Shown: positions 13,007 to 39,770 of the stretch, piece after piece
How the letters are laid out: each line of letters begins with the position of its first letter
Position numbering within the stretch: position 1 is the first letter of the stretch
NCBI RefSeq assembly: GCF_002157895.1
Contig: NZ_CP021377.1
Coordinates: forward strand, 1,550,001 to 1,614,000
Length of the DNA stretch: 64,000 nt
Source: Oceanisphaera profunda
GTDB taxonomy: Bacteria > Pseudomonadota > Gammaproteobacteria > Enterobacterales > Aeromonadaceae
Reading direction: 5' to 3'
Made by a program: the position numbers and the translations under genes
The notes under the pieces: model-generated
The model's database searches: none
Told to the model about the DNA's origin: nothing
The model's input: the letters and a program-made list of their open reading frames with translations, nothing else

Positions 13007-13966
13007 ATGAGTAAGAAGCTATTAAGACAATTGACCCTGGCGCGCTGTGTTCCATACCGTCCGTATAAGCTGACCGCGCGCCAGCTGCAAGAAAAGCTAG
13101 AAGAAGAAGGTATCCAGGTAAGTTTGCGCACTGTACAGCGCGACTTAGAAGAAATGTCCGGCATGGGCCTGTTTGATCTCACCTCCGATGATCGCAGCAA
13201 ACCCCATGGCTGGTGTTTTGAACGCAATGGTTTAAATGATTTTGCTAACTTTATGCCACTGGGCTTAGCCATGGCGCTTAAGACCTGGAACGACCAGGCC
13301 GCCGATTTGCTGCCAGCCAGTGTGCTTAATGAGTTAAACCCTATTATTGATAAAGCTAACCAAGTCATTAAAGACAGCAAAAGTGATTTGGCCAGCCGCT
13401 GGGTAGAAAACGTGATTAGCCTGCCACGGCCATTTGCCGGCAGCCCAGAAATTCGTCGTGCCACCACTATTCGTGATGCGCTGTGGCGTGGTCGTAAGTT
13501 TAGCGCCGAAATTAGACGCGTGATCAAAGGTCGCACCGTATGGTTGCGTTACGAACAGGTGAATCCACTGGGAATCGTCGGTCGTAAAGACGGCACTATG
13601 TTGCTGTGCACCGTCTCGGATATGGACCCTAAAATTTACGGTATTTCCTTTGAACATATCAAAGAAGTAGAGCTGACCAGTCGCCCAGTGACCCAGCCTC
13701 GTGAGTTTAGCGTCAATAAATTGATCCGCGAAAAAGGCTACCACGAAGAAGCCGATACCATTCATTTTGTGGGTCGTATCACCAGCCCGAATCGCGCCAT
13801 TATTGAAACGGCGATTCCCGGCAACAACCCTAGGTTGACCCGTTACGACAAGCAGAGCATGATGGTGGAAACTGAGGTCAAAGATTCGCCAGAATTTCGC
13901 CGCTGGTTAACAGATATGGCAGGAAAAGTTGAGATACTGGCTCCTGAATCCTTGAAAAACAGTTAA
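13007..13966 (+). CDS. HTH and WYL-domain transcriptional regulator
   Basis: 319 residues. Residues 1-60 form a winged helix (TARQLQEKLEEEGIQVSLRTVQRDLEEM). Residues about 160-230 are a WYL domain (NPLGIVGRKDGTMLLC in place of the classic WYL triad) followed by a WCX-like C-terminal extension to about 310. WYL proteins sense nucleotides, DNA ends or cyclic nucleotides and repress DNA-repair or defence genes. The next gene on the strand is an FtsZ paralog, 70 bp away with a terminator between. The start follows AGAGGG. Confidence 0.85.
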   Translation: MSKKLLRQLTLARCVPYRPYKLTARQLQEKLEEEGIQVSLRTVQRDLEEMSGMGLFDLTSDDRSKPHGWCFERNGLNDFANFMPLGLAMALKTWNDQAADLLPASVLNELNPIIDKANQVIKDSKSDLASRWVENVISLPRPFAGSPEIRRATTIRDALWRGRKFSAEIRRVIKGRTVWLRYEQVNPLGIVGRKDGTMLLCTVSDMDPKIYGISFEHIKEVELTSRPVTQPREFSVNKLIREKGYHEEADTIHFVGRITSPNRAIIETAIPGNNPRLTRYDKQSMMVETEVKDSPEFRRWLTDMAGKVEILAPESLKNS

Positions 13967-14036: not shown

Positions 14037-15128
14037 ATGAGCGACCACCTGTTTTTTGAACCTGCCGAGCCGGAATGTGATGTCATTAATATAGGCGTTA
14101 TAGGTGTAGGCGGTTGCGGCGGTAACACCGTCAATTTATTAGCGGATAGCACTTTGCCTGACCGCGTGAATATAGTGGCCATGAATACCGACGCCAAAGC
14201 GCTGCAACAGAGCCGCGTGGATGTGTTGCAACTGGGCAAGGTATTAACTCGCGGCCTAGGTGCTGGTGCACAGGCAGAAGTGGGCCGCTTAGCGGCAGAA
14301 GAAAGTATTGATGAAATCCGTGCCCAACTCAGAGGCGCGGATTTATGCTTTATAACGGCCGGTATGGGCGGCGGCACCGGTACAGGTGCGGCGCCCATAG
14401 TAGCTAAAGTGGCCAGAGAGCTAGGCATCATGACGGTTGCTATCGTCACCCGCCCTTTTGGTTTTGAAGGCAAGGTGCGAGCCAAGTCTGCCGACGACGG
14501 CCTAGTTGCGCTATCAGAGCATACAGATGCGCTATTGGTGCTGCCCAACGATTACTTACTTAAAGTATTGGGCTCAAAAACGCCGCTGCTGCAAGCCTTT
14601 ACCGAAAGCAGCAAAGTCATCCAAAATGCCGTTAAAGGCTTGGCCGATATCATAGGTCAAACCGGGCTGATTAATATCGACTTTGCCGACGTGCGCACTA
14701 TTATGCGCCAACAAGGCAAGGCGGTCATGGGCATTGGCATTGGCACCGGCGAAAACAAGGTGCAAGACGCGACCCTACAGGCGCTGAATAATCCTTTGCT
14801 GGAAAGAGTCGAGCTGGAGCGCGCCCGTGGCGTATTGCTTAATGTGGTGGCCTCTGCGGATATCGGCTTGGACGATTTCCAAAAAATCGGTGACTTGGTC
14901 GCAGAGTGCGTCGGTGAATTTGCCACTGTGGTATCGGGCATCACCTTAGATCCCAGTCTCACTGACAGCATTCAGGTGACCATGATAGCTACCGGTATTC
15001 AACCACCGCAAGCCACCATAGCGCCCACGCAACAGCCTAAGCCTGAAGCCACTGACACGGCCATTGCTCAAGACGCCATGCCCGAAGGGCTAGATATTCC
15101 GGCTTTCTTGCGCCAACGCCAGCAGTAA
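14037..15128 (+). CDS. FtsZ paralog (tubulin-superfamily GTPase)
   Basis: 363 residues with complete FtsZ landmarks: GGCGGN (26-30), NTDA (50-53), GLGAGA (73-78), the tubulin signature GGGTGTG (111-117), the T7 loop NIDFADV with Asp215 and Asp218, and a C-terminal tail LDIPAFLRQ (352-360). That tail in FtsZ binds FtsA, ZipA and ZapD. It should bind GTP and polymerise. Overall it diverges strongly from dcw-cluster FtsZ. The linker is only about 30 residues and no ftsA or ftsQ is adjacent, so it is a second FtsZ rather than the housekeeping one. The start follows GGAG. Confidence 0.85.
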   Translation: MSDHLFFEPAEPECDVINIGVIGVGGCGGNTVNLLADSTLPDRVNIVAMNTDAKALQQSRVDVLQLGKVLTRGLGAGAQAEVGRLAAEESIDEIRAQLRGADLCFITAGMGGGTGTGAAPIVAKVARELGIMTVAIVTRPFGFEGKVRAKSADDGLVALSEHTDALLVLPNDYLLKVLGSKTPLLQAFTESSKVIQNAVKGLADIIGQTGLINIDFADVRTIMRQQGKAVMGIGIGTGENKVQDATLQALNNPLLERVELERARGVLLNVVASADIGLDDFQKIGDLVAECVGEFATVVSGITLDPSLTDSIQVTMIATGIQPPQATIAPTQQPKPEATDTAIAQDAMPEGLDIPAFLRQRQQ

Positions 15129-34548: not shown

Positions 34549-34965
34549 ATGGCAAAATTATTGCTAAATGCAGATCTGGGGGAGAGCTTCGGCGCTTGGC
34601 AATTGGGCCAAGATGAAGCCGTGCTGCCCCTTATTGATTTGGCCAATATCGCCTGCGGCTTTCATGCCTCAGACCCCGATACCATGCGCCGCACCGTGCG
34701 CTTAGCTCACGATCATCAAGTAAAAATTGGCGCCCATCCGGCCTATCCAGATTTAGTCGGCTTTGGTCGTCGTGGTGACGCTTACAAACTGGCGGCAGGT
34801 GATCAGTTACTTTTTTCAAATACGGCGACAGAAAAAATACCACTTGAACGCACGCTACCCGCTTACGCCTTACCTGACTATAAGGCCGATCCTCTCTTGG
34901 ACTTGATCCCGAGCACTCAGCTTCGTTTCTTTGACGATAAAAGCGTGATCGCCTCTTTTACCTAA
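34549..34965 (+). pseudogene. Truncated pxpA fused in frame to a fragment of pxpC
   Basis: 138 codons from ATG 34549. Codons 1-75 (to FGRR, ending 34773) match the intact PxpA at 37283-37507, with few differences in DNA. Codons 76-138 ([14 protein letters not shown] ... [15 protein letters not shown]) match residues about 144-210 of PxpC. After the stop the same frame continues PWQLDPQSDR, again PxpC. So about two thirds of pxpA, all of pxpB and the first part of pxpC are gone. The pxpC slice is clearly diverged from the resident copy. A ribosome site (GGAG) is present, but the product cannot be an active oxoprolinase subunit. Confidence 0.85.
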
Positions 34966-35140
34966 CCTTGGCAGCTTGATCCGCAATCAGACCGCATATC
35001 CTAAGTGCAAAAACGGGACTAGCAAAAAAACCGGCGTCGTTCCTTTATCCGGCCAGCATCCCATAACCCAATTCGGCCTCGCATCCATCTCCTTCGGCGG
35101 ACGACCGCCACATATTAAGACTCAAAATGAGCTGTTTTTC

Positions 35141-35171
35141 TTGACGGTTTAATCTCTCACAAGGCTATTAT
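35141..35171 (+). promoter_or_regulatory. Possible promoter of FtsZ-like gene 1
   Basis: TTGACG (35141-35146) and TATTAT (35166-35171) are 19 bp apart, two longer than ideal. Both boxes are conserved in unit 2 (36330-36335 and 36355-36360) with the same spacing, while bases between them vary. Confidence 0.4.
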
Positions 35172-35260
35172 TGCATCTTGTGTTCGAAACGGGGTGATAT
35201 CGTCGCTCAACCCTTCTAGAGGTAGGCCGACATTACTGCCTATTTCACAAGGAGCATTCC

Positions 35261-35980
35261 ATGCAAGAACAAGCGTTATTCAGCACCGACGGGGATGAGT
35301 ACATCATCCTACTGACAAACCCCCATCACATTTCTTTGGCTCCCCTGGCACTGAACGGGATCCAGCAGTGGGACAGCCTGCAGGCGGAAGGCCTGACCGA
35401 CACCATGATCGATGAAAGCCCCGTGGTCATCCTGCTGGAACCGAGCGAAGCGGAGCTTTCTCGCCTAGCCCGAGCAAACAGGCGGGGATTTTGGCTGGCG
35501 GTGCAGCCCTTCGACAGCTCCGCCGCACAACGGGCAGCGCTGAACGAACGAGTCGACCACCTAGTGCTGGCCCACAGAGACCAATTCAAACTGCTGGTAC
35601 GGGACCTGACCGAGCTGCTCACCCGAGCGGGGCTGATCGTAACCGATCTCAACGATATCCGCACCGTATTGGATTCGGGCCAAGGCATTTCCCACTATCA
35701 CAGCGGCACCAGTTTGCCCCGCCTCGACACCGGCAATATGGGAAGCTATCTAAGCGACACCTTCGATCACCACTTCCCACACGACCGGCTCAGCGCCCTT
35801 GGCGTACTGACTATAAATCTCACGGTCACCACTATGGAGGATTTTTCTGTGTACATGGACTATTTCATCTTCCTCAATAAAACCATCCGTGGTCAGCTCG
35901 CCCCCACTAGCCGCAGCGCACATTCGGGAGAGCTTATGCGTGTTGGCTTCTTTGTGGTGCAGGAAGCCAAACGACCATAG
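35261..35980 (+). CDS. FtsZ/tubulin-like protein lacking the GTP-binding motifs, copy 1
   Basis: 239 residues, no family recognised by name. By eye it aligns with the FtsZ paralog at 14037 from strand 3 onward. SPVVILLEP (53-61) takes the place of the strand before the GTP loop; [12 protein letters not shown] (74-85) matches [29 protein letters not shown] (94-112) matches LSEHTDALLVLPNDYLLKV. GLIVTDLNDIRTVL (124-137) matches the T7 segment GLINIDFADVRTIM, and GVL...DF...D (181-200) matches GVL...DDF...D. Absent are GGxGGN, GLGAGA, GGGTGTG and about 20 residues of the central helix. Asp129 and Asp132 stand where the catalytic T7 aspartates are. Strong site AAGGAG 6 nt before ATG. Codons CGA, AGG, CGG and GGG are more frequent than in neighbours. 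Confidence 0.6.
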   Translation: MQEQALFSTDGDEYIILLTNPHHISLAPLALNGIQQWDSLQAEGLTDTMIDESPVVILLEPSEAELSRLARANRRGFWLAVQPFDSSAAQRAALNERVDHLVLAHRDQFKLLVRDLTELLTRAGLIVTDLNDIRTVLDSGQGISHYHSGTSLPRLDTGNMGSYLSDTFDHHFPHDRLSALGVLTINLTVTTMEDFSVYMDYFIFLNKTIRGQLAPTSRSAHSGELMRVGFFVVQEAKRP

Positions 35981-36104
35981 CCCGAGCCCAAGATTGCGCC
36001 CAGGGCTGAGCTCAAGACTGACCCAGACGTCGAATAATCACCGCTATATCTCGATCAACCCTCGTTCCTCAGTCGAGCGGGAAAGTAACGTATTATCGGC
36101 AGCC

Positions 36105-36199
36105 CGGGCGCTCAGTTTCGTTTCTTTGACGATAAAAGCGTGATCGCCGCTTTTAGCTAACCTTGGCAGCTTGATCCGCAATCAGACCGCATATCATAA
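36105..36199 (+). pseudogene. pxpC remnant before FtsZ-like gene 2
   Basis: The frame from 36110 reads [16 protein letters not shown], stop, PWQLDPQSDRIS, stop. This matches PxpC residues about 196-223 with the same internal stop as the upstream remnant. It lies 50 bp after unrelated sequence and opens duplication unit 2. Confidence 0.8.
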
Positions 36200-36329
36200 G
36201 CACAAAAACGGGACTGGAAACAAAAAACCGGTGTCGTTCTTTTATCCGGCCATCATCCAACACTGCCTCGCATCCATCTCTTTCCGCGGGCGATCTCCAC
36301 ATTAAAAGACTCAAAGTGAGCTGTTTTTT

Positions 36330-36360
36330 TTGACGACTTAACCACTCATAAGGCTATTAT
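36330..36360 (+). promoter_or_regulatory. Possible promoter of FtsZ-like gene 2
   Basis: TTGACG and TATTAT with the same 19-bp spacing as in unit 1. Conservation between the copies is the main argument. Confidence 0.4.
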
Positions 36361-36449
36361 TGCATCTTGTGTTCGAAACAGGGTGATATCGTCGCTCAAC
36401 CCTTCTAGAGGTAGGCCGACATTACGGCCCATTTTACAAGGAGCATTCC

Positions 36450-37169
36450 ATGCAAGAACAAGCGTTATTCAGCACCGACGGGGATGAGTACATCATCCTA
36501 CTGACAAACCCCCATCACATTGCTTTGGCTCCCCTAGCACTGAACGGGATCCAGCAGTGGGACAGCCTGCAGGCGGAAGGCCTGACCGACGCCATGATCG
36601 ATGAAAGCCCCGTGGTCATCCTGCTGGAACCGAGCGAAGCGGAGCTTTCTCGCCTAGCCCGAGCAAACAGGCGGGGATTTTGGCTGGCGGTGCTGCCCTT
36701 CGACAGTTCCGCCGCACAACGGGCAGCGCTGACCGAACGAGTCGACCACCTAGTGCTGGCCCACCGAGACCAATTCAAACTGCTGGTACGGGACCTGACC
36801 GAGCTGATCACCCGAAAGGGGCTGATCGCCACCGATCTCTACGATATCCGCACCGTATTGAATTCGGGCCAAGGCATTTCCCACTATCACAGCGGCACCA
36901 GTTTGCCCTGCCTCGACACCGGCAATATAGGAAGCTATATGAGCGACACCTTCGATCACTACTTCCCACACAACCGCCTAGCCGTGCTTAGTGTACTGAC
37001 TATAGATCTCATGACCTTCACTTGGGATGATTTTTCCGCGTACGGGGACTACTTCATCTACCTTAATAAAAGCATCCATGGTTACCTCGCCCCTACTACC
37101 CGCAACGCACATTCGGGAGAGCTTATGCGTGTTGGCTGCTTTGTGGTGCAGGAAGCCAAACGACCATAG
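36450..37169 (+). CDS. FtsZ/tubulin-like protein lacking the GTP-binding motifs, copy 2
   Basis: 239 residues, about 87% identical to copy 1 (32 differences counted by eye). Only 4 of these fall in residues 1-118; 28 fall in 119-239, and the last residues are again identical. The T7-like segment reads [14 protein letters not shown], keeping both aspartates. [10 protein letters not shown] (192-201) resembles LDDFQKIGDL of the FtsZ paralog even more than copy 1 does. Same strong AAGGAG site. Retention of an open frame and of the aspartates through such divergence suggests selection rather than decay. It lies directly upstream of intact pxpA, which has its own ribosome site. Confidence 0.6.
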
Positions 37170-37282: not shown

Positions 37283-38044
37283 ATGGGAATATTATTGCTA
37301 AATGCAGATATGGGTGAGAGTTTTGGCGCTTGGCAATTAGGCCAAGATGAAGCCGTGTTGCCCTTTATTGATTTGGCCAATATCGCCTGCGGCTTTCATG
37401 CCTCAGACCCCGATACCATGCGCCGCACCGTGCGCTTAGCTCTCGCTCATCAAGTAAAAATTGGCGCCCATCCGGCCTATCCAGACTTAGTCGGCTTTGG
37501 TCGTCGTTCATTAGCCTGCTCGCCCGCTGAAATAGAAAACATGGTGCTCTATCAACTCGGTGCACTGGACGGCCTGTGTCGTGCCGAGGGCACCCAAGTC
37601 AGCTACGTTAAGCCCCACGGCGCTTTGTATAACGACATGATGCGCGAGCCAGAAAAACTGGCAGCGGTAATGCAAGCGGTAGCCCGTTATGATGCGAGCT
37701 TGCCACTGATGCTGATGGCCAAAGCGGATAATCAAACAGCCCTCGATTTGGCTCAGTCTTTTGGTTTACAGCTGTGGTTTGAAGCCTTTGCGGATCGTGC
37801 CTACGACAACGCGGGCTTTTTAGTGTCGCGCCAGCTGCCCGATGCCGTGCTTAGCTCACAGGAGCAAATTGTCGAGCAAGCCAGACGTCTCATTATGGCG
37901 GAGCCGTTAATCGCCCATGACGGTAGCGCCCTGCGGTTAACGGCCGATACCTTATGTGTGCACGGTGACAACCCTGAGTCCATCGCCGCAGTAAGCGCTA
38001 TTCGCCACTTGTTGGAAAACCTAAAGCTGGATGGCCTAGTTTGA
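37283..38044 (+). CDS. pxpA: 5-oxoprolinase subunit A (LamB/YcsF family)
   Basis: 253 residues, the usual size. Family motifs are intact: [64 protein letters not shown] and TLCVHGDNP. With PxpBC it cleaves 5-oxo-L-proline to glutamate at the cost of ATP, clearing a damage product of glutamine and glutathione. The ATG at 37283 follows AAGGA by 9-10 nt. The first 225 nt are duplicated in the remnant at 34549. It overlaps pxpB. Confidence 0.92.
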
Positions 38045-38808
38045 GCAACAATGTGAATAACAGCTTGAATACAAGCGTGAATAAGAACGTGAGTCCGTTG
38101 CCTCACCTCGAAAACGCCGGCATGGACGCTTGGCTGGTGCGACTATTCGATGCCATAGACGAGCGCAATATGGGCTGGATTACCGCTTTGGTCAGTGCGT
38201 GCAAGCAAGCTTTTGGCGAACTGCTGGTAGATATAGTGCCTTCTTATACGACGGTCTTGGTGCAGTTTGACGCTTTGCAGTTAGATCATGCACAGGCGCG
38301 GCGCTTATTGCAGCAAGTGTTGCGTGGGCTGGCGCCCGATCTGCACGCTGACGACGACACCGCCATTATCGAGCTGCCGGTTTGGTATCACTTAAGCGTT
38401 GGCCCAGAGCTGGCGCGTTTAAGCCAACACACGGGACTGGAAATCCCCGCCTTAATTAAGCTGCACAGCCAGCCTGTGTATCGAGTATTTGCGCTGGGCT
38501 TTGCACCCGGCTTTGCTTTTATGGGCACCCTGCCCGCCCAGCTTGAGTTGCCACGATTAACACAACCAAGAGCGCAAGTGCCTGCCGGCAGTGTGGCCAT
38601 TGCTGGCCGCCAAACTGCCGCCTATCCCAACGCCTCGCCGGGTGGTTGGAATTTACTTGGCCGTACGCCGACTCAATTATTTGATTTACAAAGGCCCAGC
38701 TTAAGCCTGCTACAAGTGGGTAATAAGGTGCGCTTTGTACCTATCACAAAAGCGCAGTTTGAGCGTTTGGGCGGCGATAGCACGCCTATGGCCAAGGAAG
38801 CCTATTAA
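38041..38808 (+). CDS. pxpB: 5-oxoprolinase subunit B (KipI-like)
   Basis: 255 residues if the TTG at 38041, overlapping the pxpA stop, is used. Carboxyltransferase subdomain motifs are clear: [69 protein letters not shown] and VRFVP. The N-terminal ~14 residues ([15 protein letters not shown]) are low-complexity and unlike other PxpB, so a GTG a few codons later may be the true start. It acts with PxpC. The pxpC start overlaps its stop. Confidence 0.9.
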
Positions 38809-39770
38809 TGCAGGGTTTACTAACCGTCATCAAGCCTGGACCTTTAAGCACCTTGCAAGATGCAGGACGCGTTGGCGTGCGCCACTTAGGCATTAGCCAA
38901 GGTGGGCCGGCGGATCTGCAAGCTTGGGGCTGGGCTAATTGGCTGCTGGGTAATAACTGGGGTAGCCCCACATTAGAAATCACCTTAGGCGGACTCACCC
39001 TAGTCGCCGAACAAAGATGCCACTTGGCCTTGTGTGGCGCAGATATGCAGCCCCAGGTTAATGGCCAACCCTTGACCAATAACCAAGCTTTTACGCTCGC
39101 CGCCGGCGACGAGCTCCAACTCGGCATGGCCAAGTGTGGCGTACGCGCTTATTTAGCCGTAGCTGGTGGCTTTATCGCAAAACCCGTTCTAGGCAGCGTG
39201 GCCTGTGTGATGCGTGACCAACTCGGTGGCCATCTCGGTGATGGCAGCAAATTAGCGGTCGGCGACACGCTCGCTTTTGCTAGCAGTGCTTTTTCTAGTA
39301 GCCATGTAGCCGATTTTATACCTCGGCGCCAGCTCCCCGTAGGCGCGCTACCTCATTACGAGCAAGCAGCCACACTGATGATGATCCCCGGCGCCCAGTT
39401 TCGATTCTTTGATGATCTCAGCCTGATCCAAGCCTTTAATCAGCCTTGGCGCGTGGATCCTCGATCGGATCGTATGGGGATCCGCCTGCAAGGCCCAATG
39501 CTGCACTGCAACATTGGAAGCTTGATCTCAGAGGGTCTCACGTTGGGTGCGGTACAGGTGCCACCTAGCGGCCAGCCCATTATCTTGCTTAACGACCGCC
39601 AAACTATTGGCGGCTATCCGCGCTTGGGCACGCTGACGCCGTTAGCCTGTGCACGATTAGCTCAATGCCAACCGGGCCAAAAAGTGCGACTAGGCACATG
39701 CACAGCAAGCCAAGCGCAAGCACAATATCGGGAATTTAGGGCGACGCTAAAGGGCAGCCATGCGCTTTAA
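38808..39770 (+). CDS. pxpC: 5-oxoprolinase subunit C (KipA-like, biotin-dependent carboxylase-type)
   Basis: 320 residues with family blocks TVIKPGPLSTLQDAGRVGVRHLGISQGGPAD, YLAVAGGF, IPGAQFRFFDD, QPWRVDPRSDRMGIRLQGP, LISEGLTLGAVQVPPSGQPIILLNDRQTIGGYPRLG. It starts on TAATG with pxpB. Residues about 144-223 are the slice found, diverged, in the two upstream remnants. Confidence 0.92.
   Translation: MQGLLTVIKPGPLSTLQDAGRVGVRHLGISQGGPADLQAWGWANWLLGNNWGSPTLEITLGGLTLVAEQRCHLALCGADMQPQVNGQPLTNNQAFTLAAGDELQLGMAKCGVRAYLAVAGGFIAKPVLGSVACVMRDQLGGHLGDGSKLAVGDTLAFASSAFSSSHVADFIPRRQLPVGALPHYEQAATLMMIPGAQFRFFDDLSLIQAFNQPWRVDPRSDRMGIRLQGPMLHCNIGSLISEGLTLGAVQVPPSGQPIILLNDRQTIGGYPRLGTLTPLACARLAQCQPGQKVRLGTCTASQAQAQYREFRATLKGSHAL

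Follow-up and report, generated by a model that had tools for sequence, protein, structure and literature searches.

The GTP site is the usual feature by which a protein is assigned to the FtsZ/tubulin superfamily and assessed. The domains of FtsZ are reported to fold independently, and its T7 loop to complete the active site of the neighbouring subunit (PMC7327170). Division can also be controlled through WYL proteins: one of them, activated by single-stranded DNA, is described as inducing a division inhibitor (PMC4211646), control of the same kind appears in a preprint (PMC12340889), and WYL proteins are further presented as regulators of defence genes (PMC9122601). Our literature search found no description of a GTPase-less FtsZ family.

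We analyzed two tandem genes in a 64,000-nt stretch of the Oceanisphaera profunda genome, called here the window; coordinates given without a locus prefix refer to this whole stretch and not to the feature. An earlier reading of the letters alone (the sequence-only reading) had proposed that both genes are FtsZ/tubulin relatives stripped of the GTP site, of a layout known from no described family, and our literature search agrees with it on the latter point. Judged by sequence comparison, both 239-aa proteins are relatives of FtsZ. With their homologs they form a new variant within the FtsZ superfamily, named half-FtsZ below: a family of rare, fast-evolving, accessory and GTPase-less FtsZ relatives. 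Our preferred reading, which we hold tentatively and at somewhat less than an even chance, is that half-FtsZ would be a damage- or phage-responsive division modulator, its T7 face binding the GTP end of FtsZ; this proposal is drawn from sequence and gene context.

Anatomy of half-FtsZ and homology to FtsZ

Gene 1 (P0002, 239 aa) lies at 35261..35980 and gene 2 (P0003, 239 aa) at 36450..37169, both on the + strand. Both frames are intact, and the two copies share 87% amino acid and 92.8% nucleotide identity. The leader of gene 1 (34965..35260, + strand) carries AAGGAG directly 5' of the ATG; the leader of gene 2 (36154-36449) resembles it and also contains AAGGAG. Promoter-like sites are not above chance between 34960 and 37300 (1 found, 1.4 expected). 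Multiple alignment with FtsZ shows that the order S4, S5, S6, shortened H7, T7, H8 and C-terminal domain is retained, the strands, helices and loops bearing what we take to be their usual FtsZ names, and that H6 and the start of H7 are gone. Gene 1 thus reads S4-S6, short H7, T7 loop and FtsZ C-terminal domain, with T1, T3 and T4 gone, and in gene 2 the T7 aspartates are D129 and D132. The motif pairings drawn earlier with the FtsZ paralog of the window (14037-15128) were recovered in the same order by this alignment, and the loss of about 20 residues of helix 7 was found again as 21 alignment columns absent before or within H7.

Taken alone, the window proteins give weak signals. Neither Pfam nor PHROGs returned any match for them; the top match in the PDB was FtsZ at a weak E = 0.095; and TIGR00065 matched them weakly (E = 0.035 and 0.29; 13.4 and 10.4 bits), far below its equivalog cut-off of 295 bits. 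An FtsZ HMM scored them singly at 16.8 and 15.3 bits, against maxima of 4.2 and 1.9 among 500 residue shuffles per protein. Homology is settled by the profiles of their relatives. Five members aligned with 16 FtsZ by hhalign gave a probability of 98.2% (score 103.5, 178 columns), while 200 column shuffles gave at most a score of 24.5 and a probability of 2.7%, and the kinship that the sequence-only reading had proposed, with a profile search as its check, is thereby upheld. The same comparison with the three closest sequences alone gave 97.5, but restricted to 57 columns around T7. Chance resemblance to FtsZ was rejected on these column shuffles and on the residue shuffles of the HMM scores, and spurious frames were rejected on the presence of relatives in 8 other genomes.

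Profile searches gave the same result on a larger scale. A profile of five short members, free of FtsZ, matched 339 of the 394 genomes of the order sample at E <= 0.01, with matches extending up to E = 0.009, and 74 of the 75 genomes of the window's family at E <= 0.1, housekeeping FtsZ lying between 3e-9 and 6e-7. With all 11 members, 74 of these 75 genomes matched at E <= 1e-4 (housekeeping FtsZ 3e-13 to 8e-10). Nearly all of the matches listed, a few short members aside, are FtsZ-sized frames. As a lone query, P0004 still found matches at E <= 0.05 in 314 of the 394 genomes of the order sample, its best FtsZ match being at 5e-6. Among the first seven members, five matched TIGR00065 (best 3.4e-4); Pfam found no FtsZ domain in these seven, which counts against the preferred reading. 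P0007 and P0008 did not rise above their shuffles with the FtsZ HMM and P0005 did so slightly (6.0 vs 3.5 bits); the result for P0007 and P0008 is a further point against that reading. With the family HMM these two reached 22.5 and 20.6 bits, their 1000 shuffles going no higher than 6.9 and 10.0; the P0008 match spans 39 residues around T7.

The glycine motifs T1 (GGxGGN), T3 and T4 are absent from all 11 member rows and present in 16/16 FtsZ, as the sequence-only reading had it for the window pair. The GTPase domain PF00091 is matched by none of the 11 members at E <= 1, and for this reason we do not file half-FtsZ as FtsZ. The C-terminal domain FtsZ_C (PF12327) is matched through Pfam by 3/11 members (best 8.4e-8, the L098 member being above cut-off); in the window proteins it was found by profile-profile and HMM comparison, not by Pfam. 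The two T7 aspartates are the sole invariant residues across the 11 members, a conservation favoured by the fact that members were found partly via T7 similarity; the FtsZ asparagine next to them is retained in a single member (1/11). A T7 face kept after loss of the pocket motifs, as first seen in the window, is thus a property of the whole family. The claimed absence of the first Rossmann strand is less clean family-wide: one relative (L098:8893-9681) has a remnant that resembles, by eye, FtsZ strand 1 and T1, and a low-confidence model places a strand-like segment at residues 15-18 of a window protein. For L099, motif scoring used a row cut back to the FtsZ-like portion; the excluded front part holds one GGGGN string (residues 52-56), before a strand-1-like segment and outside the T1 place.

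Structure prediction, which the sequence-only reading had named as a check, gave models of low confidence, which counts against the preferred reading. The family-only model of P0003 (pLDDT 42) had an uninformative fold. An AlphaFold2 model of the relative from Oceanimonas (pLDDT 51, pTM 0.54) showed the FtsZ element order, its alignment including the window paralog and two viral-contig FtsZ. Searched with Foldseek, this low-confidence, FtsZ-seeded model had only FtsZ among its best 50 of 829 matches (best E 4.9e-8, TM-score 0.42). Because FtsZ was in the alignment, we count this agreement as support, not proof, of an FtsZ fold.

Distribution and neighbourhoods of the family

Half-FtsZ comprises 11 genes in 9 genomes of two families of one order, with proteins of 206-290 aa: 8 short-member genes in 6 of the 75 genomes of the window's family and 3 in 3 of the 121 genomes of the second family (f9). 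The order sample of 394 genomes yielded short members in 3 of them at E <= 1e-13, a fourth match being an FtsZ-sized frame. The class sample held no further short member in its 124 genomes; 102 of them matched at E <= 1e-3, and the listed matches outside the window pair are all frames of at least 292 aa. The relative in Oceanimonas sp. CHS3-5 (G058) is 43% identical and has the same genomic position; its sequence finishes with the C-terminal peptide of FtsZ. Mobile origins were considered and rejected: the plasmid collection gave no match with P0003, P0004, P0006, P0008 or L098, the phage collection none with P0003, P0006 or L098, and the viral contigs none with P0004 or alignment A4.

One lineage carries a putative DNA-binding domain. 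At L099:8803-9675 this FtsK-gamma-like domain is fused in front of half-FtsZ, with a WYL gene just downstream; it is termed only FtsK-gamma-like because it scores slightly under the Pfam cut-off (28.4 vs 30.6).

To characterize the context of the family we examined the genes around its members. In 5 of the 9 member-bearing genomes, half-FtsZ has a Pfam WYL gene no more than about 5.5 kb away, against 0.08 expected (P = 4e-9; 3e-7 without G285, which is related to G601), this distance having been chosen after the data were seen and the genomes holding 0-4 WYL genes each. None was found near the members of G053 (L037), G058, G064 and the window pair, which counts against the preferred reading. 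Two genomes of different families, G049 (L040) and G601 (L098), present two GmrSD_N genes followed by half-FtsZ, with the WYL gene at the other end of the cluster. The WYL gene of G567 (L099) stands about 0.7 kb from half-FtsZ, that of G060 (L036) is accompanied by a type III methyltransferase and helicases, and G285 (L097) has kept its WYL gene, with half-FtsZ frameshifted in front and the GmrSD genes absent. The two members of G064 (L096, L039), about 14 kb apart, share an island that also holds type I restriction, CARF, dynamin-like and integrase genes. In total, defence-type genes adjoin members in 4 of the 9 genomes, with restriction islands in two (G060, G064), and no defence gene was recognised around the members of G053, G058 and the window pair. 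PADLOC models gave no family for P0003 itself at E <= 0.001; matches were obtained for the 9 neighbours taken from L036, L039 and L040.

Three further observations concern these loci. The regions L098:3139-9681 and L040:8532-14092 form a common cluster of WYL, two GmrSD_N and half-FtsZ genes, a candidate defence module. At L097:9049-9844 the first portion of half-FtsZ is in a different frame from that of the L098 gene, and no GmrSD genes stand beside it; the locus may be the L098 cluster in decay. A 233-aa protein upstream of half-FtsZ at L037:10804-11505 has no Pfam match.

The defence-type genes close to members in 4/9 genomes would also suit a decoy or bait, in which the synergy-loop face of FtsZ soaks up phage or host division inhibitors (T7 Gp0.4, SulA-like), or in which the resulting complex is sensed by a defence protein acting as partner. 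In PMC13423816 the synergy-loop surface is the predicted binding site of Gp0.4, which is likened there to SulA and MciZ, and the complex of Gp0.4 with FtsZ is also reported to trigger CapRel-Ebc immunity. Fast protein evolution points the same way: between L098 and L097 the dN/dS of half-FtsZ is 0.69 (NG86), 1.05 (LWL85) and 0.63 (YN00), a range of 0.63-1.05, against 0.12, 0.13 and 0.10 by the same methods (0.10-0.13) for the neighbouring WYL gene. However, the L097 gene of this pair is frameshifted upstream, so that part of the change may be decay, and a decoy has no obvious need for both catalytic aspartates. We regard a decoy role as unlikely.

The window locus: origin, decay and the full-length paralog

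The half-FtsZ pair of the window stands between a terC-like gene and three genes similar to pxpA, pxpB and pxpC, names which we take to apply to these neighbours. The three pxp-like genes (37283..39770, + strand, the start being taken at 37283) are possibly co-transcribed. Remnants of such genes surround the pair: at 34549..35001 (+ strand) a pxpA-like start (91%, residues 1-76) is joined to pxpC-like sequence (46%, residues 141-224), and between the two half-FtsZ genes, at 36104..36196 (+ strand), lies a pxpC-like fragment (68% over 31 residues). These remnants point to gain followed by tandem duplication as the probable origin of the segment. Comparison of 22 pxpA loci showed a plain terC-pxpA junction at 10, half-FtsZ at 2 (window and Oceanimonas), and 10 loci not showing the junction. 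In the nearest genome by pxpA (G059), half-FtsZ is absent both at the site and elsewhere, which counts against the preferred reading. As a separate observation, the pxpA- and pxpC-like remnants between 34549 and 36196 suggest that the whole unit was duplicated and lost more than once.

Substitution rates give a mixed picture. The dN/dS between P0002 and P0003 is about 1.0, again a point against the preferred reading, and that between P0003 and the Oceanimonas protein is about 0.42, with dS near saturation. The dN/dS values, those of L098/L097 included, show half-FtsZ to be a fast-evolving protein, and selection on the window pair may be relaxed or diversifying. With no WYL neighbour, a recent gain and a dN/dS of about 1, the window copies may be decaying. 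At the extreme, the window genes would be relics without function, left by a gene that was gained and duplicated not long ago, and open by chance; the ratio between the copies, the surrounding pxp-like remnants, the absence from the nearest genome and the plain junction at 10 other pxpA loci, with the gene carried there by the window and Oceanimonas only, would all fit. Yet the two frames are unbroken, the AAGGAG leaders of both are intact, D129 and D132 are retained, and the ratio of about 0.42 against the Oceanimonas relative, read with its near-saturated dS, also speaks against relics. We consider relics fairly unlikely.

The window contains, in addition, a full-length FtsZ paralog with a GTPase domain (14037..15128, + strand), which begins 70 bp after a gene for an HTH regulator of WYL/WCX type (13007..13966, + strand). 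The WCX domain of this regulator is just over cut-off and its WYL domain is not matched by Pfam; the protein is homologous to WYL proteins encoded at related loci. The regulator-paralog pair was also present in 8/8 further genomes of the genus examined (of 22), hence in 9/9 with the window. Such a regulator was found at none of 56 housekeeping ftsZ loci (53 distinct places, about 3.3 kb), each taken as the match with about 1.5 kb of flank on both sides. This constant pairing, with about 20 kb between the paralog and the half-FtsZ pair, would suit a half-FtsZ that partners the paralog and not housekeeping FtsZ, in a separate regulated filament system. The profiles argue otherwise: that of the 11 members fits the housekeeping FtsZ of the family (3e-13 to 8e-10) better than the paralog (1e-7 to 2e-5), and the matches listed for G064, G285, G601 and G567 are the half-FtsZ genes plus one FtsZ. 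We hold this partnership to be highly improbable. No word of 9-13 bases is common to the leaders of the half-FtsZ pair and the region of the regulator and paralog.

Proposed role and comparison with described systems

Under the preferred reading of a division modulator, half-FtsZ could neither bind GTP nor polymerise. Its T7 face would dock on the GTP-bearing face of FtsZ or of an FtsZ paralog; once docked, it would block further subunit addition and might trigger hydrolysis, acting as a division inhibitor built from FtsZ. In the relatives it would probably be induced by the WYL regulator sensing DNA damage or phage DNA. The window genes, beside the pxpABC-like genes and with no adjacent WYL gene, may already be drifting. 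A bolder version, which we find rather doubtful, sees a defence- or damage-linked module: FtsZ pared down to its T7 face, placed under a WYL regulator (probably sensing single-stranded DNA) and beside GmrSD or restriction genes, would arrest FtsZ or trap phage division inhibitors during the destruction of invading DNA. A family that has shed the GTP site in nature and conserved only the T7 aspartates would show that one half of the FtsZ active site is useful by itself; half-FtsZ would be a ready-made genetic probe of filament ends, and cell-division control would be linked to bacterial immunity.

The association of a WYL gene with phage defence genes is shared with BrxR-type regulators (PMC9122601), in connection with which GmrSD is also named; the descriptions consulted mention no FtsZ-like component, unlike the half-FtsZ loci. 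The proposed scheme resembles the DriD-DidA checkpoint of Caulobacter, which likewise links a WYL regulator to a division modulator, but here FtsZ itself would be recycled as the effector, whereas DidA is described as a small membrane protein acting on FtsW/I/N and is no FtsZ relative (PMC4211646). Compared with FtsZ (TIGR00065; PF00091 and PF12327), half-FtsZ has the same T7 aspartates, the S4-S10 order and the C-terminal domain, with the C-terminal peptide as well in Oceanimonas; it differs by its size (206-290 aa), by the absence of the T1, T3 and T4 loops, H6 and the start of H7, and by having no PF00091. FtsZl1 and FtsZl2 (Makarova and Koonin 2010, PMC2875224) are likewise extra FtsZ-superfamily genes beside a normal FtsZ, but according to that account they retain the core that binds the nucleotide, and their C-terminal parts are unrelated, the reverse of half-FtsZ. 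The closest in proposed role are SulA, MciZ and T7 Gp0.4, presented in PMC13423816 as blocking FtsZ assembly at the protofilament interface: these are other proteins that bind the T7 face, whereas half-FtsZ is derived from FtsZ and bears the T7 face itself.
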